Shown in pieces: positions 1 to 63,608 of a stretch of 64,000 nt of DNA. The translations under genes were made by a program, and so were the position numbers. The number at the start of each line of letters is the position of its first letter. The stretch's first letter is position 1. Origin of the DNA: Ascidia mentula (lineage: Eukaryota > Chordata > Ascidiacea > Phlebobranchia > Ascidiidae). Below the pieces are notes generated by a model that was not told the origin of the DNA, did not search any database, and saw only the letters and a list, made by a program, of their open reading frames with translations. The stretch spans positions 4,593,001 through 4,657,000 of the forward strand of contig OX387199.1 of the NCBI GenBank assembly GCA_947561715.1, written 5' to 3'.

Positions 1-3000
1 GCAGGCAAATCCCTCAACCAAAACACCTCTAAACAAACTTTTAGTTAATTCGGCAAAATATGCACTTGGAATAGTTGGGTTTATAGACTTCGTAGTCCAC
101 CAGGCATCCTGCCAATCATGCAATAGCACTGCGCAACCTGGGATAATTTGTTTCTCTTAACTTGTACAACATTCTGTTTTACTGCTTTTAGATTTGCGAC
201 GATGTGTTGCGTGGAATATTAAATTTCGGACATTATTATTTGTATGAGCAATAGAGCCAATAAAGTTTTCATAGTGAGCTGCAGACAGGGCCACGGTTTT
301 AACCTAATGTGTCTGATCATTGTAGTTATGATATGACTTACAACGATCTGGTCAGCTGAATAGCGGCATGACTTCCAGTTTGCGTTGACAATACAGCCGC
401 CATTGCCCATTGGATACCAAACTAAGTGTAACTTTTGCCGTAAGCAGGCAAAAGCTCAAACCAATTGTAATGGTAACTTAACTAACTTGTACAATTGCTG
501 CGTACAAAATGCATGTGTTCTGGTGCTGATTGGGAAGAAAATTAGCATTGAACAATAATTTCGTGTGTATGCTGAACGTGCTTCACGTACAAAGAAGAAA
601 AACTTACAATGGATAAAAGAGGAGGAAACCGGTAGAGTGACGTCACTTCGATGCAGGCGCAATTTAAATAAAGAGTAATAAGTTACGAACCTATTGATGG
701 CGTGGGTTGGGGGCGTTGGTGCACCAGACAGTCTCGCGCATGCGTAGTAGTCGCCCACCGACTCTACCATCCCAGCTACTACCCCAGCTATCATACCCAC
801 AGCACCCGTAAGGGTAACTTTGGGCATACCCCATTGACCTGGGTAGGGGAAGCGAAACCTAGTAAGCATATTTTTTTGGTTAGCACAAATGGTGTTTGTA
901 GTTATAACATACGGTATATGCTAAAGAACCACCTCACAGCTAGGTTGGCATTTGTGATCCTCATATAAGTCTGTGTTTGTGTAACATAGAAATCTGTGCA
1001 AAGTTAACCTTCAGGTGCTAATAAAAGCAACCACCTGTTTTGTTAGTCATACGTTTAAATACTACAATAGATTGTACTTGTACCGTCAACATTCGCACAG
1101 ATTTCTATGTTTCACAGATCTCTTATATGAGGATCACAACTGCCGACCTACATGTATAAGCTGGTTCTTAAGCATATACCAAAAAATACAACCTAACCAT
1201 GGCGAGTTGGCAACCACGTCGGTTCGTATATCAGTTCTTGCTCTGTAACTGGTGGCGGTTGGATCCGACGAGAAGGCACCGGTTGCGGTGAGAACTATAC
1301 TTAACGTCCAAGCTATTACAAGCGATAGCATCACCTAAAAGGCAAAAACTTTTTGCAACATACATTACCGAGATGACTTTTTGAGATATATTCTTTGGTG
1401 TCGAATGATTTTCATTCCATTCGAAATACTCACAGGGAAGGCTTTAAATACCGGCACTGAAATTGTCTCCAGGTTTCGATTGGTGAGCGATAACTTTGGC
1501 AGCAAAACATTTATGTTTTTCAGATATTGGGAAAACAAAATCATCAAAACAATCGTTCTGAAAAGGTAAATGTTTATTTATGCATATTGATACAGGAAGC
1601 AAACCTAATGATGTTTTTTAGCGATCGGCAGACAGCGCCACTGTTTCGACCTGACAGGTCTCATCAATGCAGCTGGTGTGACTTACTTCGGTTTTGTCAG
1701 TTAAATAACCAAACATTGCTTTAACTTCATAAAAGTCTTTTAAAATCTGACGAAGATTTACAAACTTAACCAATTTAACATCCAAGTGTCAAGCTGTACT
1801 TACAAGGACGCTATGCCCCATTGAACTGAGGCGTATTCGTATGCCACAACGAAGAGGTGCAAGCCTAGTAGGGTTACTGTTGGCATAACTGTTAATGGTC
1901 CGATATATCGTAGAAACAAACCGATAGTTCCGCTTGCACCCAAAAACACTTGCAGAAGCGAAGCCACTGTTATTGCACCTTGTACCTGAAATTACAGTAA
2001 TTGAAAGTTAACTAACATATTTGAATAATCCTACATTTTGAAGAAAAGTGTATTTTAGGAATCTGATGCGTTATGTTTATATGGGTTAAGTTATAAAACT
2101 ACCGAAGCAAACAGCAAGCAATGAAGGTAGGTTTCATGCATAGTCACCTCTCTCATGCGACTCATCCAAACCTCATCGGCATTTTTTATTACTCCATCCG
2201 TGTCATTGTAGAGGACAATGCTGTTGTTGGCATTCTCCGAAACCAACGCTACGGGACATTGGTTATGGGGTAGAGCCAACAACGCCAAAGTGGGCACCAA
2301 GTAGTTTACGGACGATCCTTGTAGAATAGGTAGTCTAAAAGCAATTACAAAAAACACGGTCTTTTCCTCAGGTTTCAAGTTTAATTTGGTTAATGTTGTG
2401 CGTGGTCAACGCTATTCAGTATACAGTGAAACTGTCGGTGGCAAATAAACACGTGTGACTTGCGGTACTGAAATTTTGTCTAAATTCGAAAAACAACAAG
2501 CTTAGTGAAAAACGAGATATTGCTCTGTTAGCGAAGTGTGCAACTTCAAATAAACTCCCGACTGTTACGTTTCTTGAGAGCTTGTTCATGACAACAATAC
2601 GTAAGTTACTTGGATAGACATGTTTTTTTTTCCAATTTTACTATTACCTAACTCCAATTGTGGTTTGGAGCACAGTAAAAATTCCGGCTGTGAAAAAAAC
2701 AGTGCTTATAATCATAGCGGTCGTTATGCCTCCCGCTTCGTCCTGTGTAATGCACAAACGTGGCGACAAGATCAGAGTCAGTCCAATCATTCCACAAGCG
2801 GCAAGGTAATGCTGGACAATATAAAGAAACACGTTGTGTAACAGTGGACGTTATTTATCTTCTCATGTGAAAAACGACCATCGCGCTCGGGTCTGTACAG
2901 ACACTATTTCAAATAAACAGATAATTTCTGTGCTAATGAAATTAGAGGCGTAAAATTAATCATCGTAACCAAAGTTGCAGGAAAAATAATGTTGTTACGT

Positions 3001-5585: not shown

Positions 5586-6169
5586 AGCGAATATGTATTA
5601 GCTGCTATGTGCGTGAACAGTTGTTTAGTATTGTATTAAAAACGATGTGGTCGCGCCTTTGCAATTATTTTTAGCCTACGTTTGCAATCATTGTATTGAC
5701 TTCTGTGTGCCTCGTATCATCTTTTTTGGTGTTCATGAAAGAATTGTGCGATTTTAAAGCCTTTACAAGTATAAACCACAATTTTGTAGTCGAGTACCAA
5801 GTTTTGAAATAATGTATCAAAAATATCGGGATTTTTATTTTACATCTGAATAAGACATTTGATTATTGTTACTACGTTCACTTTTCTGCACGTACTTCGA
5901 TTTGTCACCAAGCATTCACCACAACAGAAAGACTTAATTCAAGTTCTGTGTATATTTAAAGCAGAATATCAGAATGTCGGAACGTTGCAATGGTAAAGGC
6001 AAAAATAGGCGTAGATATACCGAAATGTAGTTTGCATTCAATAACAGCTCCGTAACAAAATTATACATCAATGCCTGCCATTTCATAACGATTACGTTGG
6101 AGTTTTTATCGAAAAGGTATGCGTTGTATCTTCGATGGATCACACTCTGATCCGTCGAACAATTGTAAT
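5586..6169. other. Family A block spacer
   Basis: Non-coding sequence repeated with small changes at about 10620-11258, 19085-19719 and 24110-24770. Conserved pieces include GATTTTAAAGCCTTTACAAG and the GGTCACACTCTGATCCGTCG segment just past the Ly6 stop codon. This should include the 3' UTR of the neighbouring Ly6 gene. No ORF is supported. Confidence 0.5.
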
Positions 6170-7299
6170 TTAGTAAACGTTTATCATGCGCATTGCAACC
6201 CAGCCAAATATCATCGGTATAATGCCACTGAAGGCAACCAGGGACGTAGCATCACTGGTTGAGTTAGGGGGAATGGGGGTTGGTAATAATGATGGTGGTG
6301 GCATCGACGACACTGCTGTTGGTGGAACCGACGAATTTGCTGGTGGTGAAACCGACGACATTGCTGGTTCGGTAGCCATTCCAGCAGTGTAATTCATCCG
6401 TAGACTGGCAAATGTGTTGTTGTTGCAATTGTCTGTGTTGCAACAGGCAGCATCACATGCACTGAAAAAAGTGGTACATGGAATTTTTGTAAACTGTATT
6501 TTCTGACTGCACAGTTCTTACCATACTGCATAAAGTGTGTATATAATACGCGATGATATTTTAGTTACAACAAAATATAAGCGTTTCCAGTTTACTTTTC
6601 TTGGCGGGTAATATGTTGTTTACAAAGATTGACTATCTGTTAAAGTCAGTTTCATTAATTTAAGCAGTATAACCTTATATTACGTATGACATTTTGTCAA
6701 TTTTTCTGAATACATACGTGATAGCGCTGATAAAACTGGAAAAGGATGGCGACATTTGAGCTACAATAGTTTTGGTTTCCATGATGCAATTTGTTGTATT
6801 GGACATAATGACGAAGCAGTTGGCTTTAGGGAGGCAGGCCAGGCCCGAAGCTGATGCAGTCTGAGATCCTTGGCCAGCGCCAACTTTAAGGAAAAAAAAA
6901 CAGGAAAAAATATATGATTGGAACAAATTAAAAAAGGTTGCTCCTGTCTCATCGTAGTGTAGGTTATAGTAACAACATAAAGGTCAACATTTTTAGCTAG
7001 AAATTCGTTGTTTGCGACAATCGTAATGGAACAGGTTAAACAATACTGCACGCGCCATGCATTATAATATAATCGGATTTGGTGTATGGATGACATTAAG
7101 TTTAAATGCACGCATACCTACCGTCTACTCTCACACATTGAGGGTCAACCATACTCATGGGGCATGTCGACATGTTATACACGGTTTCGGACTTTCCCCC
7201 AAGAGTTAAATTCATGTAACCGGTGTAGCAGCTAATCGCGTCAGTAGAATACACTAGCGCCATAGCGGGCAGTAGTACGGTGAGACAGAAAGGTTTCAT
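6170..7299 (-). CDS. Ly6/uPAR three-finger protein, family A copy 1
   Basis: Three exons on the complement: 7122-7299, 6718-6883 and 6170-6461 (211 aa). Exon 1 gives a signal peptide (MKPFCLTVLLPAMALVYSTDA) and the first three cysteines (SCYTGY, STC, PQC). Exon 2 gives three more (ACLPKANC and TNC). Exon 3 gives ACDAACCNTDNCN, the CCxTDxCN end of the Ly6 fold, then a Ser/Thr/Pro-rich stalk and a hydrophobic end like a GPI-anchor signal. Ten cysteines imply five disulfides. Introns are phase 1 and phase 2. The intron-1 acceptor here is TTAAAG where a sister copy has TTACAG, so it may be weak. Expected on the outer cell surface; ligand unknown. Confidence 0.85.
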
Positions 7300-7881
7300 T
7301 GTATATTTCGTAGTTGTTGTTACTAGTTTGAAACAAACCTGTTGACAAGAAAATCATAAACACTTATTTTAAACGTTATTGGTATCAAGCTGCATTCAAA
7401 TAGTACCATTCGAACATTTTTTGCATTTAAAATGATTTATTTGACAGCAGAAAGCAGGTCAAAGGCTAAGCCTGGCCATTCAACTGCCTTGAACAAGATT
7501 TAAATTAAAAACCAACAAAAAGTGTTTCAAGAATTAAAATCGATACATAGAAATATTTAAGTTCCCGAACAATCGTTGCATATCAAAAGACTAAAGATCT
7601 ATTATCAACGCTTATAACTGTTAAACTATCGCCAAATCTCCAGCGCCTCTCTCAACTCTATTCTTACGTTCGGGCGCATCCGCCGCTGTAAAGTTTTTCG
7701 GTATGCGTCAGATCGGCCCCTATTGGCTGTAATTTACTTCCTTGTAGCTATAATCGACTCTTTCGGCAGTTTCCTTGAATTGTTGTTTGAAACGCTTTGT
7801 TGCCGACCCAAACTTTGTACGTATAATCACTGCACCCAATTATATAAACTTTTCGCAATTTTTAAACTTTGTATATTAGCG

Positions 7882-7920
7882 AGACCTTTTAGGTCGAAAC
7901 AGTGGCCATCTGTCTGCAGC
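7882..7920 (+). ncRNA. Truncated hammerhead ribozyme (3' part only)
   Basis: Has stem II (AGACC-TTTT-AGGTC), GAA, stem III ACAG/CTGT and the GTC cleavage site followed by TGCAGC. The CUGAUGA core and the 5' strand of stem I are missing because the insertion starts here. It cannot cut by itself. Confidence 0.8.
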
Positions 7921-8146
7921 AAATTCATATTATTGGCTCCACATTGCTTATCATATGATTATTGTGACACGGGGCCTGACGGCACTATTGGTTGAGCTTG
8001 CTTGGCCGTAGTGTTTCCACCTTGTTTGCTCCGTAAGGTTGCACCTAGTTTGGTGCCCAACGGATGACGGTGACTGTATAGTCACCACAAAGTGGAAGTC
8101 TTTGCTTGGCCGTTTGGTCTGCAAAGTTCGTCTTATAGTCACACCA

Positions 8147-8197
8147 GCTGCACTGATGAGACCTTTTAGGTCGAAACAGTGGCCATCTGTCTGCAGC
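8147..8197 (+). ncRNA. Type I hammerhead ribozyme, apparently intact
   Basis: Stem I GCTGCA (8147-8152) pairs perfectly with TGCAGC (8192-8197). The core is CTGATGA (8153-8159). Stem II is GACCT-TTT-AGGTC (8160-8172), followed by GAA (8173-8175). Stem III is ACAG/CTGT around a 7-nt loop (8176-8190). C8191 is the H17 position, with cleavage after the GTC triplet. All invariant core bases are present. The exact match to the hammerhead consensus makes chance very unlikely; whether it cuts in the cell is untested. Confidence 0.92.
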
Positions 8198-8490
8198 TTA
8201 TACACAAATTTGTATATTAGCGTTTTGCAAATTAAAGCCGTAACAAACAATAAAGTACTCCCTGCAAGAACAGCGTGATTGGCTGTCTTACAGGAACAAT
8301 ACACGAAACTTCAAATTTTTTGGACAATGATGAAAGACTTTCCTATATGAAACCGAAACCATAGCGCTTTTTCAAAAACAATCACGCAGCAACGCTAAAT
8401 ATGCTCGCCACAATTGTTACATTTACTAGTTCAGAGAATAGGATTTATCCCAGCGTCACTCGATAACTTGATACTAGTTTCTATAACGTT

Positions 8491-8600
8491 GAGGCAGTGT
8501 TGTTGTTGCAATTATCTTTGTTGCAACAGGAAGCATCACATGCACAAAAAAAGTGGTACATGAGATTTTCGTAAACTGTGTTTTCTAACTGCATAGTTCG
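8491..8600 (-). pseudogene. Ly6 family A exon-3 relic fused behind kinase K1
   Basis: The minus strand reads like the end of intron 2 and the start of exon 3 of a family A Ly6 gene (TGTGATGCTTCCTGTTGC, then AAAGATAATTGC, cysteine motif CDASCCNKDNC). The splice acceptor CAG is destroyed (TTTTTTTGTG) and the stalk and GPI tail are gone. It lies directly downstream of the broken end of the K1 kinase, marking a recombination junction. Confidence 0.75.
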
Positions 8601-8674
8601 TAACGTATTGCTTTCGCAGTCCTTGGAAAGTGTTCTTGCAAAACCTAACAGAAGCAAAAAATCGTTCCGGTTGT

Positions 8675-9789
8675 TTATATTTTGCGAGTTGCTTTTCCAC
8701 GTTCTTTAACCTCCAGCATGTTTGGTCGTTCTCTTGGATTTTGTTGCCAGCATTTTTCCATAACATCTTGCATAAGCTGAATACTTTCCTTATCCCTAAC
8801 ATCCATCCTCTTCCCCAGGATTTGTTTAATTTTGTCAGTGTTGGGTCGAGATCCGAACTTAACTGCTTCAACAAACACTTCAGGTGGTGTTGTAAATGGA
8901 TGCTGTCTAACCAGCATTGTGTAGAGCATCATGCCAAAACCAAACGCGTCTTGCTCCTTGCTCAAGGGATGACTTGGATCCTTGAGAACCTCTGGAGCTG
9001 TATAAGCTAATGTAAATTGATCTCGTTGTGGATTCTCAGTGAAAGATAGTGCATTGGTGTAGTTGCACAATTTGGCACCTCCGAAGTCTGAGAGCTTGCA
9101 ATAGAAATCTTTGGAAATGAGAATGTTTCCAGTTTTTACGTCACAATGAACCAAGCGTTTGCGTTTGTTGAAGTTGTGGACAATGCTGAGGCCCCTTGCC
9201 ACCTCTGTACACATTTGCAGAATAAGTAAGACAGGAAGTTCCACATCTGAGTTCAGCAAAAGTTTTTGAAGATTTCCGTAGTTGCAATATTCCATTACAA
9301 TGGCCATGGCATCTTTCCACTTTGTATAGCCGTACACACGGACCACGTGATCGTTGTCGGAACTATATTTGAGGGCAAGCTCATTTTCAATCCTTCATAA
9401 AACGCAAATCACATTTTTATTATTATCTGTTTTCACTACATCACTTCCTACGTTGTATGACATAATCTGAAATATACTCACATGTCTCGGATGTATTTTC
9501 CCTTTTTCATAGAATAACATTTGAGAACAACTGGACCAAGGTTTTGGTGCAAAGCAAGTCTAACTACAGAAAAACCTCCCGAACCCAAATCTCCTTTCTT
9601 TCCAGGAATGCAGAGAAATTCCTTCGGGTCGTATTCGTGTAACTGAGATTAACAAATATACGTCACCAAATGGTTAACATAATCATCGTGGCCGTGCTTA
9701 AAGCGCCCAAGCTTTGCCGAAAGCAAATTCAAATGTATTACGGAAGATTTTAAGTTATTTTCATTGCTTACCTTTGACGAACTATTCAT
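8675..9789 (-). CDS. TKL-like protein kinase K1, C-terminally truncated
   Basis: Exons on the complement: 9772-9789 (MNSSSK, with an in-frame stop six bases upstream), 9482-9642 and 8675-9392; 298 aa. Kinase features: glycine loop GSGGFSVV (26-33), VVLK lysine (47), αC region IENELALKY, HCDVKTGN catalytic loop (about 142-149), an intact DFG (162-164) and TAPEV. The HRD arginine is Cys. Compared with paralog K2 (14212-16409), a 2-nt deletion just after LEVKE shifts the frame and ends the protein 9 codons later. The downstream linker and helical tail exons are gone and replaced by a Ly6 exon relic. The kinase domain itself could be active. Substrate and pathway unknown. Confidence 0.8.
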
Positions 9790-11258
9790 TATTTAATTTC
9801 GGAATTATCAACAATTTTTTTACAAAGTTCTGATGAAAGACAAACGGCAATGATAATTATGATGATAACAGCAAAACTGTTTTCCAAATAATACAACCTT
9901 TCAACCGGTAACTTCAACAATTTGCCCTTCCTGCGGGTGTCAATCAATCAGACCAACGTCATCAAAACTTCTGCAAAGCGTGTCTTGCGATATTTCCAAA
10001 CTTACCGGATGTGACGTGTCTTCGTGATTAATGGAGAATTCCTGCGCTGGTTTTCGAAAGTCAGAACTCTCGTTAAGTGATTAACTTCTTGAAACCTTCC
10101 AAAAAATGAAACACGAAGAGCCGCAAAACTATTTCTTGTTTTCCTATATTGACTTTATACAGATACCAAACACTTAACAAATGATTATGTCGGCTGTTAA
10201 GCTATTCCTATTACACAAGGAAACATATATAGCATAGACCAATTTAAAACAAAGCAGTAGACCGTGAGATTTTTCAAAGTAAAAGTGAAACTTAATTCTA
10301 CATTGCTCAAGCCAGTATTGTGATACAGTATGTATTTGCCCATTTGTACTTAAAATATCGACTAAAAACCGCCAAGATCTTAATTAACAAAAGCAGTTGC
10401 TTTGCTACTAAAGACCTAACCACGAATCAAGATCAAATTGATATATGGGTCGGGCACTTGACCAATGCTGCCAAACGCCCGCCCGCCTTCAGAAGTTGTT
10501 CGCATCAGAATTGGTTTTACTTTAGCTTCTGCACGCCACCAGCGGAAACTATTAAAAAACAATTAATTCGGCTTGGTGGCGCACAAGAGTAGATATGTAT
10601 TAGCTGCTATGTGCGTGAACAGTCGTTCAGTATTGCATTACAAACGATGTGGTTGCGCATTTTTTATTATTTTTAGCAATGAAATGTCATATTATTTTTA
10701 ATCTTTTATCGTATTGTATTTTTTCAATGAAATGTCGTGGAGAGGAGTTGTAAGCAATTACAGGTGTTTTTCTGTTGAACATCATTATGCCTCGAAAGAA
10801 AGAAAGTGTGCGTCATGAAAGAAAGTGTGCGATTTTAAAGCCTTTACAAGTATAAATCACAATTTTGTAGTCGAATATCATTTGTCCAAGTTTTGAATTA
10901 ATGTAACATAAATATCGGGATTTTTTATTTTACATCTAAATAAGGCATTTGATTATTGTTACTACGTTCAGTTTTTTGCACTTACTTCGATTTGTCACCA
11001 AGCTTTCGCCACAACAGAAAGACTTAATTCAAGTTCTGTGTATTTTTGAAGCAGAATATAAGAATGTCGGAACGTTGCAATGGTAAAGGCAAAAGTAGGC
11101 GTAAACATACCGAAATTTAGTATTTATTTAACAACAACTCCGTAACAAAGTTTTACATCAAAGCCTGTCAATTCATAACGATTGCATTGTAATTTTTATC
11201 GAAAAGTATGCGTTTTATCTTCGATGGGTCACACTCTGATCCGTCGAACAAGTGTAAT
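9790..11258. other. Intergenic block spacer with inverted-repeat module
   Basis: Should contain the K1 upstream region, then the repeated family A spacer (similar to 18420-19719 and 23430-24770). The inverted-repeat hairpin CGCCACCA...TGGTGGCGC is at about 10530-10582. The ORF 10320-10592 covers this repeat and is not supported as a gene. Confidence 0.5.
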
Positions 11259-12250
11259 TTAGTAAAAGTTTATCATGCGCATTGCAACCCAGCCAAATAT
11301 CATCGGTATAATGCCACTGAAGGCAACCAGGGACGTAGCATCACTGGTTGAGGTCGGTGGAACGGGTGTTGGTGATACTGATGGTGATGGCATCGACGAC
11401 ATTGCTGGTTGGGTAGCCATTCCAGCAGTGTAATTCATCCGTAGACTGGCAACTGTGTTGTTGTTGCAATTGTCTGTGTTGCAACAGGCAGCATCACACG
11501 CACTGAAAAAAGTGGTATATATGGCATTTTTGTAAACTGTATTTTCTGACTGCACAGTTCTTAACATACTGCATAAAGTCTATGCATAATACGCGATGAT
11601 ATTTTAATTACAACAAAATATAGGCGTTTCCAGTTAACTTTTCTTGACGGGTAGTATGTTGTTTACAAAGATTGACTATCAGTTAAAGTCAGTTTCATTG
11701 ATTTAAGCAGTATAACCTTATATTACGTGTGACATTTTGTTCATTTTTCTGAATACATACGCGATAGCGCTGGTAAAACTGGGAAAGGATGGCAACATTT
11801 GAGCTACAAGAGTTTTGGTTTCCATGATGCAATTTGTTGTATTGGACATAAGGACGAAGCAGTTGTCTTTAGGGAGGCAACCCAGGCCCGAAGCTGATGC
11901 AGGCTGAGGTCCTAGGCCAATGCCCACTGTAAGGGGGAAAAAACAGGAAAAAATATATGATTGGAACAAATTAAAAAAGGTTGCTCCTGTCTTATTGCAG
12001 TGTAGGTTATAGTAACAACACAAAGGTCAAGATTTTTTAACAAAAACTCGTTGTTTGCGACAATCGTAATGGAACAGGTTAAACAATACTGCACGCGCCA
12101 TGGATTATAATATAATCGGATTTGGTGTAATGATGACATTAAGTTTAATGCACGCATACCTACCGTCTACTCTCACACATTGAGGGTCAACCATACTCAT
12201 GGGGCATGTCGACATGTTATACACTGTTGTGGATCGTCCCAGTAAACTGA
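11259..12250 (-). pseudogene. Ly6 family A copy 2, signal exon broken
   Basis: Exon 3 (11259-11502) and exon 2 (11761-11926) are intact with proper splice borders and the CCNTDNCN motif, followed by a shorter stalk than in copy 1. Exon 1 survives only from about 12250 down to its donor at 12164 (...TTVYNMSTCPMSM...). The signal peptide and first cysteine are lost at a breakpoint near 12240-12250. Without another first exon the product could not be secreted, so I call it a pseudogene. Confidence 0.75.
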
Positions 12251-20850: not shown

Positions 20851-21432
20851 TGTATATTTCGTAGTTGTTGTTACTAGTTTGAAACAAACCTGTTGACAAG
20901 AAAATCATAAACACTTATTTTAAACGTTATTGGTATCAAGCTGCATTCAAATAGTACCATTCGAACATTTTTTGCATTTAAAATGATTTATTTGACAGCA
21001 GAAAGCAGGTCAAAGGCTAAGCCTGGCCATTCAACTGCCTTGAACAAGATTTAAATTAAAAACCAACAAAAAGTGTTTCAAGAATTAAAATCGATACATA
21101 GAAATATTTAAGTTCCCGAACAATCGTTGCATATCAAAAGACTAAAGATCTATTATCAACGCTTATAACTGTTAAACTATCGCCAAATCTCCAGCGCCTC
21201 TCTCAACTCTATTCTTACGTTCGGGCGCATCCGCCGCTGTAAAGTTTTTCGGTATGCGTCAGATCGGCCCCTATTGGCTGTAAATTACTTCCTTGTAGCT
21301 ATAATCGACTCTTTCGGCAGTTTCCTTGAATTGTTGTTTGAAACGCTTTGTTGCCGACCCAAACTTTGTACGTATAATCACTGCACCCAATTATATAAAC
21401 TTTTCGCAATTTTTAAACTTTGTATATTAGCG

Positions 21433-21759
21433 AGACCTTTTAGGTCGAAACAGTGGCCATCTGTCTGCAGCAAATTCATATTATTGGCTCCACATTGCTT
21501 ATCATATGATTATTGTGACACGGGGCCTGACGGCACTATTGGTTGAGCTTGCTTGGCCGTAGTGTTTCCACCTTGTTTGCTCCGTAAGGTTGCACCTAGT
21601 TTGGTGCCCAACGGATGACGGTGACTGTATAGTCACCACAAAGTGGAAGTCTTTGCTTGGCCGTTTGGTCTGCAAAGTTCGTCTTATAGTCACACCAGCT
21701 GCACTGATGAGACCTTTTAGGTCGAAACAGTGGCCATCTGTCTGCAGCTTATACACAAA
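21433..21759 (+). mobile_element. Retrozyme-like retroposon, duplicate of R1
   Basis: Same 327-bp insert and 14-bp target-site duplication (21419-21432 and 21760-21773) as R1. It was copied by the segmental duplication, not by a new insertion. Confidence 0.85.
21698..21748 (+). ncRNA. Type I hammerhead ribozyme, apparently intact
   Basis: Identical to the ribozyme at 8147-8197: stem I GCTGCA/TGCAGC, core CTGATGA, stem II GACCT-TTT-AGGTC, GAA, stem III ACAG/CTGT, cleavage after GTC at 21742. Confidence 0.92.
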
Positions 21760-22041
21760 TTTGTATATTAGCGTTTTGCAAATTAAAGCCGTAACAAACA
21801 ATAAAGTACTCCCTGCAAGAACAGCGTGATTGGCTGTCTTACAGGAACAATACACGAAACTTCAAATTTTTTGGACAATGATGAAAGACTTTCCTATATG
21901 AAACCGAAACCATAGCGCTTTTTCAAAAACAATCACGCAGCAACGCTAAATATGCTCGCCACAATTGTTACATTTACTAGTTCAGAGAATAGGATTTATC
22001 CCAGCGTCACTCGATAACTTGATACTAGTTTCTATAACGTT

Positions 22042-22150
22042 GAGGCAGTGTTGTTGTTGCAATTATCTTTGTTGCAACAGGAAGCATCACATGCACAAAA
22101 AAAGTGGTACATGAGATTTTCGTAAACTGTGTTTTCTAACTGCATAGTTC
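22042..22150 (-). pseudogene. Ly6 family A exon-3 relic, duplicate
   Basis: Copy of the relic at 8491-8600 with the same lost acceptor; it sits behind kinase K1'. Confidence 0.75.
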
Positions 22151-22225
22151 GTAACGTATTGCTTTCGTAGTCCTTGGAAAGTGTTCTTGCAAAACCTAAC
22201 AGAAGCAAAAAATCGTTCCGGTTGT

Positions 22226-32185: not shown

Positions 32186-32377
32186 CATGGTTCGTCTCTG
32201 TTGTTTGGTACTCAGTATAGGGTACCCAACAGATCGACGTTGACCGGACAGGTACCACAAAGTGGAATCTAGTGTGCCTGCTAGTGTATAAGCTAGCACA
32301 GTGCCACTGCAACAGCTGCACTGATGAGACCTCACAGGTCGAAAAAGTGCGTGTACACACCCTGTCTCCAGCTTACC
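32186..32377 (+). mobile_element. Hammerhead retroposon R2, single-unit form
   Basis: A 192-bp insert between copies of AAAATTCAT (32177-32185 and 32378-32386). The body contains GGTACTCAGTATAGGGTACC and GTACCACAAAGTGG hairpins and differs from R1, so it is a second subfamily. It ends in a ribozyme followed by TTACC. The paralogous locus 44670-45152 has the same borders but one more unit. Confidence 0.8.
32315..32372 (+). ncRNA. Hammerhead ribozyme, subfamily II, weakened
   Basis: GCTGCA, CTGATGA, GACCT-CAC-AGGTC and GAA are perfect. Stem III opens AAAG instead of ACAG (one pair lost), and the 3' strand of stem I is TCCAGC (one mismatch). The GTC site is kept, with cleavage after 32366. The core is intact, so some activity is possible. 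Confidence 0.82.
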
Positions 32378-33141
32378 AAAATTCATGATCTTCTTCAAGT
32401 TTTACTTAAAACAGTTTGTAGCATTATCACAGTCAACAGCATGTACACTACCACAAGAGTTTCTAAAATCCATGCACATAAGTGTTAATCAATGTTCATT
32501 TGAATGCAACTTCAGCTTCAACACCTTATATTGCGCGACTGTTCCACTTCACCTTAACAAACGACTTGTTTTTGATGCCAAACTGAATCTATTGCATTTG
32601 TAATGACTGTGTTTAGTAAGGAGCAAATTGCACATTTATGCCTTCGAAAGGAACGTTGCATAAAAGCTGGCCCACGTGTTGTCACAACATTACAAGCCGG
32701 TGGGAGGCTTAATGCAAACCGCCACCAATTCAGAGTTCACGTAGTGTTGACAACGTTTGCACAAGGGTCATGAAAGGACAAAAAAAGAAAGACAGAAACG
32801 AATGATCCACCTCTCAATAGTTTGGATAAGTAAACATATGTTATCCTTAAATACTTAGCGGGGAGATAGACTTCGTTTGTCGAAACTTGGGTTCATTGGT
32901 TTTTGCCAGTGTATGACTTAGTTTTATAATATTCCCACTTTTTAACCTTTCTGCAGTCAAATTGACGACACTTTTGAAACATACGATGTGTATTGTTAAT
33001 CCGACTGTGGTAATAGAAGTTGTAATATGTTTTCAAAGCAACATTTAAATCATAAAACAAGCAAGAACAAAACTTCCAACCTAATTTATCCATTTTTTTT
33101 TTTTATTAAAACGAGAAATCCAATACACGGAGCGTAATTAA

Positions 33142-34450
33142 TCATTTCAACAGAACGAATATCAACATTCCAACAATGAACCACATGAGGTCACTGAAGG
33201 CACTTGAAGTTACACCAGCGCTGGTGGTTTCGGTTTGAACGGTGGAGGAAACCGTCTTCAGGTCTTCAAGAGTTCTGTTGTTACAGTTGTCAGTTTCACA
33301 GCAAGCCGCCTTACAACTGCACATAGAAATAACATGCTCTCACAACGTCATTAAAGCGTTCCTAACCGACGTAGCTCGTAAATTTTGAGCAGGGTCCACC
33401 AAATTTTTTTCACAAAGGGACGTAAAAAATGTGAATGTACTTTTGGAAACCCGGTAACCGTTTAAGACGATATAATTTTTATCACAATGTCATCTCCTTG
33501 CAAAGGGGATTTGAAGCAATAAATCCATTTTATGGCCATAAAAGCAGAATGTAAACAAAAAGACAACAGTGCAATTAAATTTAGTGAGAAAAATCAAAAC
33601 GTCATCTGACAGTGCGGTGTCAATAAATTTTTGTTGGTTTTTGGTCCAAGCCAAAGAGCGGCACTCGACCCAATCGGTTGTAGCTTGGTGACATCTGATT
33701 TAGAACAAATTTTCGTTTTTTTTTGTTTAACTATCCTTGATTAGAGTAAATGAAACCCTTACGATTTTAACGACGCAACTAGGTCTGGAATGCCTAGTTT
33801 CTCAGAAAGGGTCGTATTTGCGATTTTCTTGCAGTTTTCTTCGCTTTTTGTAGCATACGAACAGCTGCTTTCGGAGAAACATAGAAATCCACTGGGTTTC
33901 CCCACATCCATACCGTTCCAACTCCCTTCGGCTTTTTTCGAGAAAAGACAAAGTTTAAACGGGTGAATTATTTTGAAAAACAAGCAAGGACGTAGATACA
34001 CAGATTAATTAATTTTTATACCAAAAACAACCACTATGGTAAGCATTGTGGAGCCAATAATATGAATTGTGTATAAGCAGCACACCAGCTGCACTGATGA
34101 GATCTTTTAGGTCGGAGCAGTGGCCATCTGTCTGCATCTTATACACAACCACTATGCGTGGATAAAATCATTAAAATGGTACAACTCAACTTTCCTTTTT
34201 AAATTCAAAAGCACTACATTTGTTACTTTTGTTGAATATATTTTATCGTAGGTCACGAACGTGATACTTGCTTACCGTCCAATCTCAGACATCGACTATC
34301 AGAACAGGAGGTGCTCTTAAAACTTTCTCGAGGGAGAAAAATCACATCCAAATCTTTGTATCCGTCATAGCAATTGAGTGCCTCGGTATCGTACATTAAG
34401 CCAGCCAAGGCAATAATGACAACCAGCAGTTTATTAATAATACAGTTCAT
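33142..34450 (-). CDS. Ly6/uPAR three-finger protein, family B1 copy 2
   Basis: Exons on the complement: 34276-34450, 33763-33931 and 33142-33316; 172 aa. Signal peptide MNCIINKLLVVIIALAGLMYDTEA, then NCYDGY, STC, SRC in exon 1; FLCFSESSC and EENC in exon 2; SCKAACCETDNCN in exon 3. That makes ten cysteines. A short Thr-rich stalk and the hydrophobic end FIVGMLIFVLLK fit a GPI-anchor signal. Introns are phase 1 and 2, as in families A and B2. Intron 1 carries an antisense hammerhead insertion. An upstream ATG at 34516 is in frame but would bury the signal peptide. Confidence 0.85.
34039..34144 (+). mobile_element. Hammerhead retroposon R3 in intron 1 of B1 copy 2
   Basis: A 106-bp insert with a 12-bp duplication ACAACCACTATG (34027-34038 and 34145-34156). 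B1 copy 6 has the uninterrupted site (about 61050-61062). The left 40 bp are the reverse complement of the sequence that follows the ribozyme in R1 (CTTATACAC, then ATTCATATTATTGGCTCCAC), and the rest is ribozyme in forward orientation. This is a 5' inversion as made by twin priming. Confidence 0.8.
34088..34138 (+). ncRNA. Inactivated hammerhead ribozyme in B1 copy 2 intron
   Basis: Core CTGATGA and the GTC site are kept and stem II has one G·U pair. The invariant GAAA is GGAG, so cleavage should be lost. It is antisense to the host gene. Confidence 0.85.
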
Positions 34451-35904: not shown

Positions 35905-37343
35905 TTAATAAAATGTGATTAACAATAAGATTGAAGCACAAAGCATCAGAAATACCCTTCCGTCCATTTGCAAGGTGTTTCCCGAAGATGTCACAATGGA
36001 ACTAGGCGCGGTGGCATTCAACAACACGACATGAGCTATGTTGGTCTCTTGGATCGTCACGGTATTGTTGTGCAACGCTGTAACGGTTTGAACGGTGGAG
36101 GAAACCGTCTTCAGGTCTTCAAGCGTTCTGTTGTTACAGTTGTCGGTTCCACAGCAAGCCGCCTTACAACTGAACATAGAAATAAGATGCTCTCACAACG
36201 TCATTAAAGTGTTCCTAACCGACGTAGCTCGTAAATTTTGTACAGGGTTCACCAAATTTATTTTACAAAGGGACGTAAAAAAATGTGAAGCTAATTTTGG
36301 AGACCTGGTAACCGTTTAAGACGATATAATTTTTATCACAATGTCATCTCCTTGCAAAGGGTATTTGAAGCATTAAACCCACTTTATGGGCATAAAAGCG
36401 GAATGTAAACAAAAAGACAACAGTGCAATAAAATTTAGTGAGAAAAATCAAAATTTTATCTGACAATGCGGTGTCAATAAATTTTTGTTGGTTTTCGGTC
36501 CAAGCCAAAGAGCGGCACTTGACCCAATCAGTAGAAGCTTGATGACATCTGATTTAGAACAAATTTTTGCGTAAAACAATGTTTGTTGATATCGCAGCTT
36601 AAACGCTGTTGTTTTTGTTTAACGTATCCTTGACTAGAGTAAATGAAACCCTCACGATTTTAACGACGCAACTAGGCCTGGAATGCCTAGTTTCTCAGAA
36701 AGGATCGTATTTGCGATTTTCTTGCAGTTTTCTTCGCTTTTTGTAGCATACGAACAGTTGCTTTCGGAGAAACATAGAAATCCACTGGGTTTCCCCACAT
36801 CTATATCGTTCCAACTCCCTTCAGCTTTTAGCGAGAAAAGACAAAGTTTAAACGGGTGAATTATTTTGAATAACAAGCATGGACGTAGATACACAGATTA
36901 ATTAATTTTTATACCAAAAACAACCACTATGGTAAGCATTGTGGAGCCAATAATATGAATTGTGTATAAGCAGCACACCAGCTGCACCGATGAGATCTTT
37001 TAGGTCGAAACAGTGACCATTTGTCTGCATCTTATACACAACCACTAGGCGTGGATAAAATCATTAAAATGGTACAAATTAATTTTCCCCGTTAAATTCA
37101 AAAGCACTACATTTGTTACTTTTGTTGAATATATTTTATCGTAGGTCCTGAACGTGATACTTGCTTACCGTCCAATCTCAGACATCGACTTTCAGAACAG
37201 GAGATGCTGTCAAAACTGTCTCGAGGGAGAAAAATCACATCCAGATCTTTGTATCCGTCATAGCAATTGAGTGCCTCGGTATCGTACATTAAGCCAGCCA
37301 GGGCAATAATGACAACCAGCAGTTTATTAATAACACAGTTCAT
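35905..37343 (-). CDS. Ly6 family B1 copy 3 with B2-type tail (hybrid)
   Basis: Exons on the complement: 37169-37343, 36656-36824 and 35905-36169; 202 aa. Exons 1 and 2 and the start of exon 3 (SCKAACCGTDNCNNRTLEDL, then KTVSSTVQT) are B1. The rest of exon 3 (VTALHNNTVTIQETN... to MLCASILLLITFY) is the long stalk and GPI-type tail of family B2. The frame is kept across the join. The intron-2 donor is GTGAGG, where B1 copies 2, 4 and 6 have GTAAGG. Intron 1 holds an antisense hammerhead insertion. Confidence 0.84.
36932..37037 (+). mobile_element. Hammerhead retroposon R3 in intron 1 of B1 copy 3
   Basis: Same 106-bp insert and site as in B1 copy 2. The ribozyme (36981-37031) has CCGATGA for CTGATGA (U4 to C) but keeps GAAA, so its lesion differs from that of copies 2 and 5. 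Stem III has one G·U pair and stem I one mismatch. Confidence 0.82.
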
Positions 37344-44206: not shown

Positions 44207-44799
44207 AAGGTCGCGTGCACAGGTTTGAAGAACAGACAATTCGTTTCTATTAAATACTCTCTCTACCGCCCTCATACAAGCATCAATATCACTATAAATT
44301 TGGAATTTCTACTTTGTCTAGAGACTATAACGTCTAATTGTGAGTAAAGTAAATATTTAAAAGTCTGTTTTTAGCCTTTTATGTTTGTTTTTGAAACGGT
44401 AAAAAGAGTACGTTAAACTGCTCTGTGCTAGAAAGTGTGCCTTGGAGCCCGTGCCCATCTTGTTTTGAACATTTGGCCCGAGAATTATGCGGTTAACTCA
44501 GCCAACGGTCCCTTGTTTTAGTAACAGTGTCGTGGTGTCAAAAAGCACCCTTTATGTTGATTCGCTGAAATGACGTAAGGCCTAACTTTGTTTAATGATC
44601 CAAGGATGCATAATTATTAGATAGGGAAATACATATCTGTACTTTAATATTTCTTATTATAAAAATTCAACATGGTTCGTCTCTGTTGTTTGGTACTCAG
44701 TATAGGGTACCCAACAGATCGACGTTGACCGGACAGGTACCACAAAGTGGAATCTAGTGTGCCTGCTAGTGTAAAAGCTAGCACAGTGTCACTGCAACA

Positions 44800-44857
44800 G
44801 CTGCACTGATGAGACCTCACAGATCGAAACAGTGCGTGTACACACCCTGTCTGCAGC
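44800..44857 (+). ncRNA. Type I hammerhead ribozyme, first of tandem pair
   Basis: GCTGCA/TGCAGC stem I is perfect. Core CTGATGA; stem II GACCT-CAC-AGATC with one C·A mismatch; GAA; stem III ACAG/CTGT closing a longer subfamily-II arm. The GTC site gives cleavage after 44851. Confidence 0.9.
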
Positions 44858-45089
44858 TTACCAATATTATTATGGCTTTTTTTGCACATATATTGCATTG
44901 GTGTTTTGCCTTTAGCGCTATCGGTTACCAAGCAGATCCGTTTGGCCATAGTGCGCTCCACAGTGGTTCGTCTCTGTTGTTTGGTACTCAGTATAGGGTA
45001 CCCAACAGATCGACGTTGACCGGACAGGTACCACAAAGTGGAATCTAGTGTGCCCGCTAGTGTAAAAGCTAGCACAGTGCCACACAACA

Positions 45090-45147
45090 GCTGCACTGAT
45101 GAGACCTCACAGGTCGAAATAGTGCGTGTACACACCCTGTCTGCAGC
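45090..45147 (+). ncRNA. Type I hammerhead ribozyme, second of tandem pair
   Basis: GCTGCA/TGCAGC stem I, CTGATGA, perfect stem II GACCT-CAC-AGGTC, GAA, stem III ATAG/CTGT with one U·G pair, GTC site with cleavage after 45141. All invariant bases are present. Confidence 0.9.
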
Positions 45148-45911
45148 TTACCAAAATTCATTATCTTCTTCAAGTTTTACTTAAAACGGTTTGTAGCATT
45201 ATCACAGACAACAGCATGTACACTACCACAAGAGTTTCTAAAATCCATGCACATAAGTGTTAATCAATGTTCATTTGAATGCAACTTCAGCTTCAACACC
45301 TTATATTGCGCGACTGTTCCACTTCACCTTAACAAACGACTTGTTTTTGATGCCAAACTGAATCTATTGCATTTGTAATGACTGTGTTTAGTAAGGAGCA
45401 AATTGCACATTTATGCCTTCGAAAGGAACGTTGCATAAAAGCAGGCCCACGTGTTGTCACAACATTACAAGCCGGTGGGAGGCTTAATGCAAACCGCCAC
45501 CAATTCAGAGTTCACGTAGTGTTGACAACGTTTGCACAAGGGTCATGAAAGGACAAAAAAAGAAAGACAGAAACGAATGATCCACCTCTCAATAGTTTGG
45601 ATAAGTAAACATATGTAATCCTTAAATACTTAGCGGGGAGATAGACTTCGTTTGTCGAAACTTGGGTTCATTGGTTTTTGCCAGTGTATGACTTAGTTTT
45701 ATAATATTCCCACTTTTTAAACTCTCCAGTCAAATTGACGACACTTTTGAAACATACGATGTGTATTGTTAATCCGACTGTGGTAATAGAAGTTGTAATA
45801 TGTTTTCAAAGCAACATTTAAATCATAAAACAAGCAAGAACAAAACTTCCAACCTAATTTATCCATTTTTTTTTATTAAAACGAGAAATCCAATACACGG
45901 AGAGTAATTAT

Positions 45912-47220
45912 TCATTTCAACAGAACGAAAATCAACATTCCAACAATGAACCACATGAGGCCACTGAAGGCAATTGAAGTTACACCAGCGCTGGTGGTTT
46001 CGGTTTGAACGGTGGAGGAAACCGTCTTCAGGTCTTCAAGAGTTCTGTTGTTACAGTTGTCGGTTCCACAGCAAGCCGCCTTACAACTGCACATAGAAAT
46101 AAGATGCTCTCACAACGTCATTAAAGTGTTTCTAACCGACGTAGCTCGTAAATTTTGAGCAGGGTCCACCAAATTTATTTCACAAAGGGACGTAAACAAT
46201 TGTGAATGTACTTTTGGAGACCCGGTAACCGTTTAAGACGATATAATTTTAATCGCAATGGTCTCCTTGTAAAGGGGATTTGAAGCAATAAATCCATTTT
46301 ATCGGCATAAAAGGGGAATGTAAAAAAAAAGACAACAGTGCAATAAAATTTAGTGAGAAAAATCAAAACGTCATCTGACAGTGCGGTGTCAATAAATTTT
46401 TGTTGGCTTTCGGTCCAAGCCAAAGAGCGGCACTCGACCCAATCGGTTGTAGCTTGGTGACATCTGATTTAGAACAAATTTTCGTTTTTTTTTTGTTTAA
46501 CTATCCTTGATTAGAGTAAATGAAACCCTTACGATTTTAACGAGGCCACAAGGTCTGGAATGCCTAGTTTCTCAGAAAGGATCATATTTGCGATTTTCAT
46601 GCAGTTTTCTTCGCTTTTTGTGGCATACGAACAGTTGCTTTCGGAGAAACATAGAAATCCACTGGGTTTCCCCACATCAATATCGTTCCAACTTCCTTCA
46701 GCTTTTTGCGAGAAAAAACAAAGTTTAAACGGGTGAATTATTTTGAAAAACAAGCATGGACGTAGATACACAGATTAATTAATTTTTATACCAAAAACAA
46801 CCACTATGGTAAGCATTGTGGAGCCAATAATATGAATTGTGTATAAGCAGCATACCAGCTGCACCGATGAGATCTTTTAGGTCGAAACAGTGACCAATTG
46901 TCTGCATCTTATACACAACTACTAGGCGTGGATAAAATCATTAAAATGGTACAAATTAATTTTCCCCGTTAAATTCAAAAGCACTACATTTGTTACTTTT
47001 GTTGAATATATTTTATCGTAGGTCCTGAATGTGATACTTGCTTACCGTCCAATCTCAGACATCGACTTTCAGAACAGGAGATGCTGTCAAAACTGTCTCG
47101 AGGGAGAAAAATCACATCCAGATCTTTGTATCCGTCATAGCAATTGAGTGCCTCGGTATCGTACATTAAGCCAGCCAGGGCAATAATGACAACCAGCAGT
47201 TTATTAATAACACAGTTCAT
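45912..47220 (-). CDS. Ly6/uPAR three-finger protein, family B1 copy 4
   Basis: Exons on the complement: 47046-47220, 46533-46701 and 45912-46086; 172 aa. Same plan as B1 copy 2, with ten cysteines, CCGTDNCN and the tail FIVGMLIFVLLK. Exon 2 starts like copy 3 (GSWNDIDVG) but ends like copy 2 (GIPDLVASLKS). Intron 1 holds the R3 insertion in the CCGATGA version. Confidence 0.85.
46809..46914 (+). mobile_element. Hammerhead retroposon R3 in intron 1 of B1 copy 4
   Basis: Same 106-bp insert and 12-bp target site. Ribozyme at 46858-46908 with CCGATGA core lesion, GAAA kept, loop ACCAA. Shared lesion with B1 copy 3. Confidence 0.82.
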
Positions 47221-48304: not shown

Positions 48305-49743
48305 TTAATAAAATGTGATTAACAATAAGATTGAAGCACAAAGCATCAGAAATACTCTTCCGTCCATTTGCAAGGTGTTTCCCGAAGATGTCAAAATGGA
48401 ACTAGGCGCGGTGGCATTCAACAACACGACATGAGCTATGTTGGTCTCTTGGATCGTCACGGTATTGTTGAGCAACGCTGTAACGGTTTGAACGGTGGAG
48501 GAAACCGTCTTCAGGTCTTCAAGCGTTCTGTTGTTACAGTTGTCGGTTCCACAGCAAGCCGCCTTACAACTGAACATAGAAATAAGATGCTCTCACAACG
48601 TCATTAAAGTGTTCCTAACCGACGTAGCTCGTAAATTTTGTACAGGGTTCACCAAATTTATTTTACAAAGGGACGTAAAAAAATGTGAAGCTAATTTTGG
48701 AGACCTGGTAACCGTTTAAGACGATATAATTTTTATCACAATGTCATCTCCTTGCAAAGGGTATTTGAAGCATTAAACCCACTTTATGGGCATAAAAGCG
48801 GAATGTAAACAAAAAGACAACGGTGCAATAAAATTTAGTGGGAAAAATCCAAATTTTATCTGACAATGCGGTGTCAATAAATTTTTGTTGGTTTTCGGTC
48901 CAAGCCAAAGAGCGGCACTTGACCCAATCAGTAGAAGCTTGATGACATCTGATTTAGAACAAATTTTTGCGTAAAACAATGTTTGTTGATATCGCAGCTT
49001 AAACGCTGTTGTTTTTGTTTAACGTATCCTTGACTAGAGTAAATGAAACCCTCACGATTTTAACGACGCAACTAGGCCTGGAATGCCTAGTTTCTCAGAA
49101 AGGATCGTATTTGCGATTTTCTTGCAGTTTTCTTCGCTTTTTGTAGCATACGAACAGTTGCTTTCGGAGAAACATAGAAATCCACTGGGTTTCCCCACAT
49201 CCATACCGTTCCAACTCCCTTCGGCTTTTCTCGAGAAAAGACAAAGTTTAAACGGGTGAATTATTTTGAAAAACAAGCAAGGACGTAGATACACAGATTA
49301 ATTAATTTTTATACCAAAAACAACCACTATGGTAAGCATTGTGGAGCCAATAATATGAATTGTGTATAAGCAGCATACCAGCTGCACTGATGAGATCTTT
49401 TAGGTCGGAGCAGTGGCCATCTGTCTGCATCTTATACACAACCACTATGCGTGGATAAAATCATTAAAATGGTACAACTCAACTTTCCTTTTTAAATTCA
49501 AAAGCACTACATTTGTTACTTTTGTTGAATATATTTTATCGTAGGTCCTGAACGTGATACTTGCTTACCGTCCAATCTCAGACATCGACTATCAGAACAG
49601 GAGGTGTTCTTAAAACTTTCTCGAAGGAGAAAAATCACATCCAAATCTTTGTATCCGTCATAGCAAGTGAGTGCCTCGGTATCGTACATTAAGACAGCCA
49701 AGGCAATAATGACAACCAGCAGTTTATTAATAATACAGTTCAT
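48305..49743 (-). CDS. Ly6 family B1 copy 5 with B2-type tail (hybrid)
   Basis: Exons on the complement: 49569-49743, 49056-49224 and 48305-48569; 202 aa. Exon 3 is the same B1-B2 fusion as in copy 3 (KTVSSTVQT then VTALLNNTVTIQETN, tail MLCASILLLITFY), with the GTGAGG donor. The start of exon 2 (GSWNGMDVG) and the R3 ribozyme version in intron 1 match copy 2 instead. Ten cysteines kept; exon 1 reads LTCYDGY. Confidence 0.84.
49332..49437 (+). mobile_element. Hammerhead retroposon R3 in intron 1 of B1 copy 5
   Basis: Same insert with 12-bp duplication (49320-49331 and 49438-49449). Ribozyme 49381-49431 has CTGATGA intact but GGAG for GAAA, as in B1 copy 2. Confidence 0.82.
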
Positions 49744-62428: not shown

Positions 62429-63608
62429 TCAAATTAATAAAATGTGATTAACAATAAGAATAAAGCACAAAGCATCAGAAATACTCTTCCTAGGCGCGGT
62501 GGCATTCAACAACACATGATCTATGTTGGTCTCTTGGATCGTCACGGTATTGTTGTGCAACGCTGTAACGGCGGATGACTTTTTGAAAGATGTTGTCGCA
62601 TACCTTTGGTGAGCTGTGACTGGATTTCGAGTGGAAATTTTCCGTTCTGGTAATACAGATGTTGTTTTTGTTGGCATGGCATTAGTCGTCGAAGCTGTCG
62701 AACTCCTTGGAGCTTCGAGAATGCTCGCCACGCTTTGACTGTTGCAGCCGTCTGAGTCGCAACACGCTGCTTTGCATTTACTGCAATATTAAGGAATTGC
62801 ATGTTTCGGTTTTGTTCTAACGTCAAAACACTAAACTTAAATAGAAATCAACCACGCCATTCCAACAAGTTTAACTTGATAAAAATAGTGTATAAGCTGC
62901 AGACAGATGGCCACTGTTTCGACCTAAAAGGTCTCATCAGTGCAGCTGGTGTGACTACAAGACGACTTTGCTGACCAAACGGTCAAGCAAAGACCACTTT
63001 GTGGTGACTATACAATCACCGTCATCCGTTGATAAAAATAAACCACACTTTGTACAGCAAAGAATTCAACACCCCGTTTTAACCTCAGGGTATTCGTTCG
63101 CCCTCTTGTAACATGCTTGAATACAATCTTAAGGAACAATTTTCATTTGGTAACCCACTAACTTTACCTGATTTGGGGTGATAGGCTTGCCAGCGATGGA
63201 ACCAAACGATTGAGTAGAGTTTGTGTATACTGAATGCAAGCTGCCTGACTCGATTCTATTTGTGAGCATTCAGAAGCAGTGTAGCATGACATGGCGTGGC
63301 CCGAGACGATGTAGGGGAAAATACTACCAGTTGCTGCAGACGAAGTTAAAAGTAGTGCACATATATAAAACGGTTTTAAGAAGTTATTGTCGCAAAAATT
63401 GGTCACGAAAAGTTTGACAAAGTTCAATGTCGTGCAAACCTTCAATACGAAGACACCTTTCCTCTGCTTCTCCGCACAGCATGTCATTTATAGCAGTGCT
63501 ATAAATTCCTGTGTTGTCCACAAACCCATTTCTGCACCGTAGAGCGTTCACGGCCATTGGGTACAGAAGGAGACAAAGGAAATGCAAACGCAAACTAAAA
63601 ACATCCAT
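62429..63608 (-). CDS. Ly6 family B2 copy 6, divergent, altered tail
   Basis: Exons on the complement: 63440-63608, 63168-63333 and 62429-62780; 228 aa. Exons 1 and 2 are diverged from the other B2 genes: signal MDVFSLRLHFLCLLLYPMAVNA, RCRNGF, LCGEAEERC, MSCYTASEC, QAAC. Exon 3 is a long-stalk type close to copy 5. A deletion after LNATAP shifts the frame, so the end reads KSISDALCFILIVNHILLI instead of the usual GPI-type tail. It is still hydrophobic and may or may not anchor. Intron 2 holds retroposon R4 in the same orientation as the gene. Confidence 0.8.
62889..63028 (-). mobile_element. Hammerhead retroposon R4 in intron 2 of B2 copy 6
   Basis: A 140-bp insert with the 12-bp duplication TTGATAAAAATA at 62877-62888 and 63029-63040. 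All other B2 copies have the single site (TAGATAAAAATA, for example near 30496). On the minus strand it starts inside the R1-type body (CGGATGACGGTGA...) and ends with a complete ribozyme plus TTATACAC, so it is 5'-truncated with the same 3' end as R1. Confidence 0.88.
62896..62946 (-). ncRNA. Type I hammerhead ribozyme, intact, sense within a Ly6 intron
   Basis: On the minus strand it is identical to the ribozyme at 8147-8197: GCTGCA, CTGATGA, GACCT-TTT-AGGTC, GAA, ACAG/CTGT, GTC, TGCAGC. The cut falls between 62902 and 62901. Being in sense, it would be part of the B2 copy 6 pre-mRNA and could cut intron 2. Confidence 0.92.

Follow-up and report, generated by a model that had tools for sequence, protein, structure and literature searches.

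The 64-kb window (the whole stretch of 64,000 nucleotides that was analyzed) contains short, hammerhead-bearing insertions belonging to two sequence subfamilies, A and B, and to both orientations, as BLAST confirmed for a first-pass annotation (Table 1). The limits given there for one A insertion, 7882 and 8208, proved exact, since they are bounded by 14-bp direct repeats (TTTGTATATTAGCG). The 5' end of this insertion falls in stem II of a partial hammerhead, which is followed by a 277-nt unit and an intact hammerhead, and its 3' end lies about 17 nt past the ribozyme cut, at the first of two recurrent end sites described below (site 1). The hammerhead at 8147-8197 on the plus strand is complete and of type I, with stem I formed by GCTGCA/TGCAGC, stem II by GACCT/AGGTC, and stem III by ACAG/CTGT, and with cleavage predicted after GTC; both motif and stems agree with the plan that had been drawn for it. 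The unit measures 277 nt because 8 nt (TTATACAC) are absent at the inner unit boundary. Thus, of the unit sizes proposed earlier, 290 nt held for subfamily B and 277 nt for this window copy, whereas the A unit common in the genome is 285 nt. No coding capacity was seen in the insertion, over which no stop-to-stop frame of at least 150 amino acids extends; elsewhere in the window, an antisense open frame, unsupported as a gene, spans 44644-45147. Among the genome matches listed for the 7882-8208 copy, 125 were related, its own two places in the window being counted in.

Table 1. Retrozyme copies and associated features in the 64-kb window
Feature	Position	Strand	Basis
Decayed hammerhead remnant	1628..1683	-	BLAST
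Left target-site duplication TTTGTATATTAGCG of 7882-8208 insertion	7868..7881	.	Exact 14-nt repeat of 8209-8222
Retrozyme A insertion, single arm	7882..8208	+	Exact insertion between 14-bp direct repeats
Right target-site duplication TTTGTATATTAGCG of 7882-8208 insertion	8209..8222	.	Repeat of 7868-7881
Duplicate of 7882-8208 insertion, in 96%-identical segment (no independent event)	21433..21759	+	Self-comparison, BLAST
Intact hammerhead of duplicated 21433 copy	21698..21748	+	Motif and stem scoring
Retrozyme B, single 5'-truncated unit; hammerhead mismatched in stems I and III	32188..32383	+	BLAST, flanks, stem scoring
Short two-armed A copy	34035..34148	+	BLAST, flanks, end analysis
Segmental duplicate of 34.0-kb copy	36928..37041	+	Near-identical flanks
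Retrozyme B partial dimer, 290-nt unit	44673..45164	+	Flanks common to 32.2-kb copy
Segmental duplicate of 34.0-kb copy	46805..46918	+	Common flanks
Segmental duplicate of 34.0-kb copy	49328..49441	+	Common flanks
Retrozyme A, one truncated arm ending at site 1, with 12-bp duplication TTGATAAAAATA	62879..63031	-	Motif, end analysis

The window consists largely of long tandem and segmental duplications of 88-98% identity (5699-12237/19254-25745 and 28441-62571), among them a 6,559-bp duplication in which 5699-12237 and 19254-25745 are 96% identical. One pair of flanks is common to the copies at 34.0, 36.9, 46.8, and 49.3 kb and another to those at 32.2 and 44.7 kb, and most retrozyme copies in the window are passengers of segmental duplication that go back to few insertions. 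The B dimer carries two hammerheads (44800-44857 and 45090-45147), and the copy near the end of the window carries one on the minus strand (62896-62946). In the 34.0-kb copy, a minus-strand tail arm (34035-34068) that ends at the second end site (site 2) stands head-to-head with a plus-strand arm ending at site 1, and the copy is flanked by 12-bp repeats (ACAACCACTATG) at 34027-34038 and 34145-34156. Other repeated features of the window include a kinase open reading frame on the minus strand (8675-9394, 14981-16021, and 22226-22945), one copy of which adjoins a TPR-like open reading frame (14212-14970; below the Pfam cut-off), and a 24-bp tandem repeat of 3.2 copies that the large duplication carries twice (6293-6368 and 19843-19918). 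The kinase family with its TPR-like neighbor, together with flanks that look gene-like by eye, is the ground for regarding the genome as that of an animal.

The pattern CTGATGA-N-GAA-N-GTC occurred six times in the window compared to 0.72 expected, and none of 100 shuffles reached six; 50 block-shuffled windows yielded one core string altogether and none with paired stems. When the stem pairs of the six intact-core motifs were scored, all pairs formed in four, and mismatches were present in those at 32315 and 44800. The claim of at least twelve loci with the hammerhead plan therefore came down to these six motifs, or to 11 BLAST places if decayed, partial, and weak ones are included. As a multi-copy system the family was overcounted in the window, where most copies were made by segmental duplication, but it is borne out in the genome (195.8 Mb in 79 contigs), which holds 1,785 motifs with TGCAG next, 928 forward and 857 reverse; the reversed hammerhead pattern was found nowhere in the genome in either direction. 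The Rfam check that had been suggested returned no family at the gathering score, and a permissive search gave a single sub-threshold hammerhead match, to RAGATH-1 (29.6 bits versus a cut-off of 56.3 bits); the core is nevertheless complete in six window copies. Other hammerhead variants were encountered on contig C1, for instance one whose stem-loop II is shortened (GACCTGGTC), at C1:2664614, 2702143, 2722412, and 2735477.

The description of the family as a retrozyme-like retroelement was upheld by its type I hammerhead, its tandem units of approximately 285 to 290 nt with no coding capacity seen, and its target duplications. Metazoan non-LTR retrozymes, as portrayed in the available text of PMC7229834 (Cervera and de la Pena 2020), likewise have a type I hammerhead in a noncoding, tandemly repeated unit of about 170 to 400 nt with low G+C content, as well as target duplications of more than 4 bp, and RNA circles of such elements are reported there for coral, mussel, and axolotl. 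Here, noncoding 285- and 290-nt units with a type I hammerhead were found in dispersed tandem copies with target duplications. The same text describes the elements as tandem repeats, with no mention in it of head-to-head arms, paired sites, or a 12-bp duplication, and leaves their partner open between LINE and Penelope, the latter being named a strong candidate; LINEs or Penelope-like elements continue to be named as partners in the portion of PMC11722881 at hand. Plant LTR retrozymes are similar in being nonautonomous and ribozyme-bounded, with circular RNA intermediates, and differ in their type III hammerhead, LTRs, primer-binding site, and 4-bp duplications, according to the accessible text of PMC4918200, PMC7761336, and PMC11722881. 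The family belongs to this animal type, and its insertions carry a Penelope-type scar with a rule for its ends.

To describe insertions outside the window, 38 A loci taken from the 40 best-scoring candidates were read with 800-bp flanks, and long arms are over-represented among them because of this choice. Clustering gave some 39 B loci, for 10 of which the ends were fetched in addition to those of B loci read earlier. Seven loci were taken, irrespective of their similarity to the query, from the first 100 of the 1,785 motifs, a part of the list confined to contig C1 (an unscored sample; the eighth opposite-orientation pair in that list is L075). Ends were numbered from the first base past the ribozyme cut. 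Leaving aside the complex, three-armed L088, which was kept out of the counts, the commonest A form (31 of 38 loci) consisted of two head-to-head arms with their 3' sides facing outward, each arm amounting to between a fraction of a unit and several units. Similarly, whenever opposite-orientation hammerheads were neighbors within 1.5 kb among the first 100 of the 1,785 motifs, they were head-to-head (8/8). The truncated and variable 5' ends noted in the first-pass annotation are, in the A copies read genome-wide, mostly the inner junctions of two such arms.

Nor is there one common 3' end, as had been claimed; instead, there are two outer end sites, and the tail ending at site 2 is found in the 34.0-, 36.9-, 46.8-, and 49.3-kb window copies too. 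Site 1 lies 12 to 19 nt past the ribozyme cut in subfamily A and 6 to 19 nt past it in subfamily B, and site 2 lies 38 to 50 nt past it. In 51 of 53 simple two-armed insertions, one end was at site 1 and the other at site 2. Such mixed ends were found in 31 of 32 subfamily A insertions (30 of 31 scored by script, and the 34.0-kb copy in the window), in 13 of 14 from subfamily B (L012, L014, L018, and L086, together with nine of 10 further loci), and in all seven loci from the unscored list, three of which have imperfect duplications; for the B loci and these seven, the ends were scored by reading the printed sequence. Use of one site at both ends was never seen among two-armed insertions with a target duplication. 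Each of the 29 A insertions whose duplication is exact over at least 12 nt had one end at site 1 (positions 12 to 19) and one at site 2 (positions 38 to 49), with site 1 on the left in 15 and on the right in 14. The ends of L084, where no duplication is clear, lie at 14 and 50. The two exceptions combine site 2 with another end, at about -18 to -11 in L069 (subfamily A) and at about -7 in L114/L115 (subfamily B), and look as if a third start site had been used. In both, the odd end precedes the cut by about 7 to 18 nt, which places it some 30 nt upstream of site 1. L019, which stands outside the 53, has the site 2 tail at both ends and is likely a recombinant, because it has no target duplication and its right flank is common to L018. 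In this tally, L013, L011/L090, L015/L017, and the window duplicates were entered once or omitted. Outside it stand L010/L020/L089 and L015-L017, and also the single-arm copies L060, L063, L077, L078, L081, L087, 7882, 62.9 kb, and 32.2/44.7 kb and the A copy in L014.

Since mixed ends were nearly always found, the two strands do not pick their start independently, as is expected if one RNA serves for both. The length of the arms gave no indication of which start came first (the site 1 arm was the longer in 13 of 29), and when RNA of the site region was folded for two families of retrozyme and four of Penelope, no consistent hairpin appeared between the start sites.

The left and right flanks shared an exact match of at least 10 nt at 41 of 51 places (a few of them duplicates of one insertion), compared to 11 of 997 swapped pairs. 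Among the 29 A insertions, duplication length was 12 nt in 21, 13 nt in five, 14 nt in two, and 15 nt in one, and the composition of the duplications was 81% A+T both for the retrozymes and for the resident Penelope-like elements. Target 3' ends matched the RNA past the start by at least 2 nt in 59% of cases at site 1 and 41% at site 2 (n = 29), versus 15% and 12%, respectively, with swapped targets; this match is supporting evidence only, because it is partly tied to how the duplication is delimited.

The template was considered next to the cut site of the ribozyme. Of 62 A arms (the 34.0-kb copy being omitted), 57 read through the cut by more than 3 nt upstream. Among the remaining five, two (L073 and L085) end within 3 nt of the cut, as a cut template would give, two are too short, and one starts upstream. 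This count was preferred to one based on inner breakpoints (62/64), in which self-matching of the hammerhead stem makes the values for the 34.0-kb copy unreliable. Since both start sites are downstream of the cut, a cut monomer would yield only products of about 15 or 44 nt that stop at the cut; the read-through therefore means that, in nearly all cases, the junction in the template was closed or had never been cut. The longer arm exceeded one unit in all 29 A insertions, although the query, being longer than one unit, biases these lengths upward. Median divergence was 0 between units in one arm and between arms of one insertion and 2.1% between different insertions (L088, the 7882 copy, and L078, which adjoins a B copy, were omitted), and in 14 of 16 cases the divergence between the arms of one insertion was below that from the median other insertion. 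Arms that were mutually closer than to every other insertion were found in just three of 16, the family being too uniform for a single template to be proven in this way, and the 5-6% difference between the arms of L070 and of L076 counts against one template there. Private variants common to both arms were uninformative, as 109 of 116 locus-private variants fell in one unit piece.

A search of the genome for the GIY-YIG endonuclease domain gave 121 matches among those listed, and one resident open reading frame carries both RVT_1 and GIY-YIG. Wherever two of the 121 listed matches were opposite-orientation neighbors within 6 kb, they were head-to-head (17/17). Nine of these 17 insertions, for which both ends were fetched, all had one arm 27 to 45 nt longer than the other, target duplications of 12 to 14 bp (compared to 12 to 15 bp for the 29 A retrozymes), and, upstream of their ends, a core resembling that of a hammerhead (CTGA-N-GA ... 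GAAA). The resident arrays are multimeric, and in one of them two arms are identical over 1,363 and 1,109 bp. The scars that retrozymes share with the Penelope elements of this genome point to the enzyme that spreads retrozymes. No open reading frame for a reverse transcriptase or GIY-YIG protein fits in a unit of 285 to 290 nt, and so the retrozyme, although it looks to be inserted in the manner of a Penelope-like element, is not a member of that group. No sequence homology between the retrozyme and four resident Penelope families was noticed, and inspection by eye of these families gave no convincing match to the retrozyme start-site sequence.

Penelope-like elements studied elsewhere have the same outline. 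In the available text of PMC11167929 and PMC3846280, they have head-to-head terminal repeats with a tail of about 31 nt on one, a hammerhead close to the start sites, and short target duplications; they differ from retrozymes in encoding a reverse transcriptase and an endonuclease and in having a minimal hammerhead. Those of Adineta vaga are described in the text at hand of PMC3846280 with inverted pLTRs, an optional 31-bp tail on one of them, and duplications of 8 to 10 bp, versus 12 to 14 bp in the resident elements here, and self-priming on an antisense template is suggested there. A lizard Penelope protein both cut and extended both strands in vitro, with two start sites whose spacing equals the tail and no apparent difference between top and bottom strands in where they start, as far as the accessible text of PMC11167929 goes; that result neither predicts nor excludes the pairing of the sites. 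A link between this scar and retrozymes is absent from what was available of both papers, and no printed mixed-end rule was found in the open-access literature, while subscription papers could hold one. The presence of a Penelope-type scar on retrozymes is checkable in any genome that has both kinds of element, and, under the mixed-end rule, the tail and inverted repeats of Penelope find a simple explanation. The rule also speaks for priming of the two strands on one RNA.

Together, the results make it probable that these elements are animal-type retrozymes inserted by a Penelope-type protein, with both strands primed on an uncut and most likely circular RNA. The arms, the end sites and their pairing, the duplications, the read-through at the ribozyme cut, and the occurrence of this scar on the resident Penelope-like elements as well can be made out from the DNA itself; head-to-head arms, two end sites, and 12-bp duplications, none of which the first-pass annotation contained, bear the mechanistic information. 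From these we infer the form of the overhangs, the circularity of the template, the use of one RNA molecule per insertion, the identity of the enzyme and its partner family, and the order of steps. In the proposed mechanism, a Penelope-type protein with GIY-YIG endonuclease and reverse transcriptase would make a staggered double-strand cut in A+T-rich DNA, leaving 12-nt 3' overhangs. As template it would use a retrozyme RNA of about 277 to 291 nt, most likely a closed circle, whose ribozyme site had not been cleaved. Both DNA 3' ends would prime reverse transcription on this same molecule, the one at site 1 (approximately +15) and the other at site 2 (approximately +44). Each cDNA would then proceed back along the template, often for more than one turn, and the cDNA ends would be joined via short complementary stretches, giving head-to-head arms within a 12-bp duplication; if a sole arm survived, a single 5'-truncated copy such as that at 7882-8208 would result. 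A strict form of the rule, with one site per strand, in which a single RNA, probably a circle born of the ribozyme, primes both strands approximately 30 to 40 nt apart, is put forward tentatively, as a possibility that falls somewhat short of probable. Were it true, the Penelope tail, inverted terminal repeats, tandem units, and retrozyme dimers would be one product, and tandem Penelope arrays would themselves be copied from RNA circles.

The alternative that survives best retains the Penelope route and replaces the circle with an uncut, multimeric transcript of a tandem array. Such a template would likewise be read through the cut, give several units, and leave much the same scar, and the resident Penelope arrays are also multimeric. 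However, working hammerheads should cleave themselves in such a transcript, and a circle simply explains why the unit pieces of the single 5.5-unit arm of L060 showed no difference in any of 15 pairwise comparisons. Moreover, circles of this element class are known in coral, mussel, and axolotl (PMC7229834, in the text available). On balance, we regard the multimeric transcript as rather unlikely and a circular RNA as the preferred template.

The inner joints bear on a second alternative, in which priming happens once and the inverted arm arises by copying of a cDNA that has folded back, as in the self-priming suggested for Penelope of A. vaga (PMC3846280). Of 32 joints, 25 had an overlap of at least 1 nt (43% is expected at random), three were flush, and four contained 2 to 15 extra nt. 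The mean overlap was 4.6 nt compared to 0.66 nt at random, although it is inflated by two long overlaps (L076 and the 34.0-kb copy) and BLAST may stretch overlaps. These short complementary stretches and the head-to-head order agree with such a snap-back. It predicts equal or random outer ends, however, and the ends were mixed in 51 of 53 insertions, mostly beside a 12-bp duplication, which makes a single priming event very unlikely compared to priming of both strands on the RNA.

Mobilization by a LINE through target-primed reverse transcription, with the inverted arms produced by twin priming of the LINE-1 type, has in its favor that twin priming also involves two priming events and likewise yields inverted 5' segments and target duplications, and that RVT_1 is abundant in the genome (150 matches among those listed, LINEs and others pooled). 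In LINE-1 twin priming, however, the second primer is internal to the RNA, so that inverted arms end on the outside at scattered positions, with no fixed pair of sites, and there is a poly(A) tail. Here, the outer ends of both arms lay in two narrow zones, one each, and no A-rich tail was visible by eye at the A and B ends printed. Moreover, resident GIY-YIG elements carry the scar, in a comparison that covered Penelope-like elements, and we therefore find a LINE partner most improbable.

Inverted arms and a fixed-length duplication give these insertions some resemblance to a foldback element or DNA transposon bounded by terminal inverted repeats, but such an origin can hardly be credited, since the two ends differ by the tail in 51 of 53, single-arm copies with duplications exist (7882, L060, L063, and the 62.9-kb copy), the arms differ in tandem unit number, and the inner breakpoints are scattered. 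Equally hard to credit is a tandem satellite that spread through nothing but unequal crossing-over and segmental duplication, an explanation that suits the window, where most copies ride on segmental duplications, but not the genomic copies read, which show distinct flanks and target duplications, nor the 1,785 motifs genome-wide.

As a separate observation on reverse transcriptase sequences in this genome, the RVT_1 matches on contigs C15, C21, C49, and C51 sit in open frames of 3,977 to 19,197 codons, and frames of such length suggest stop-free tandem arrays of a reverse transcriptase repeat.
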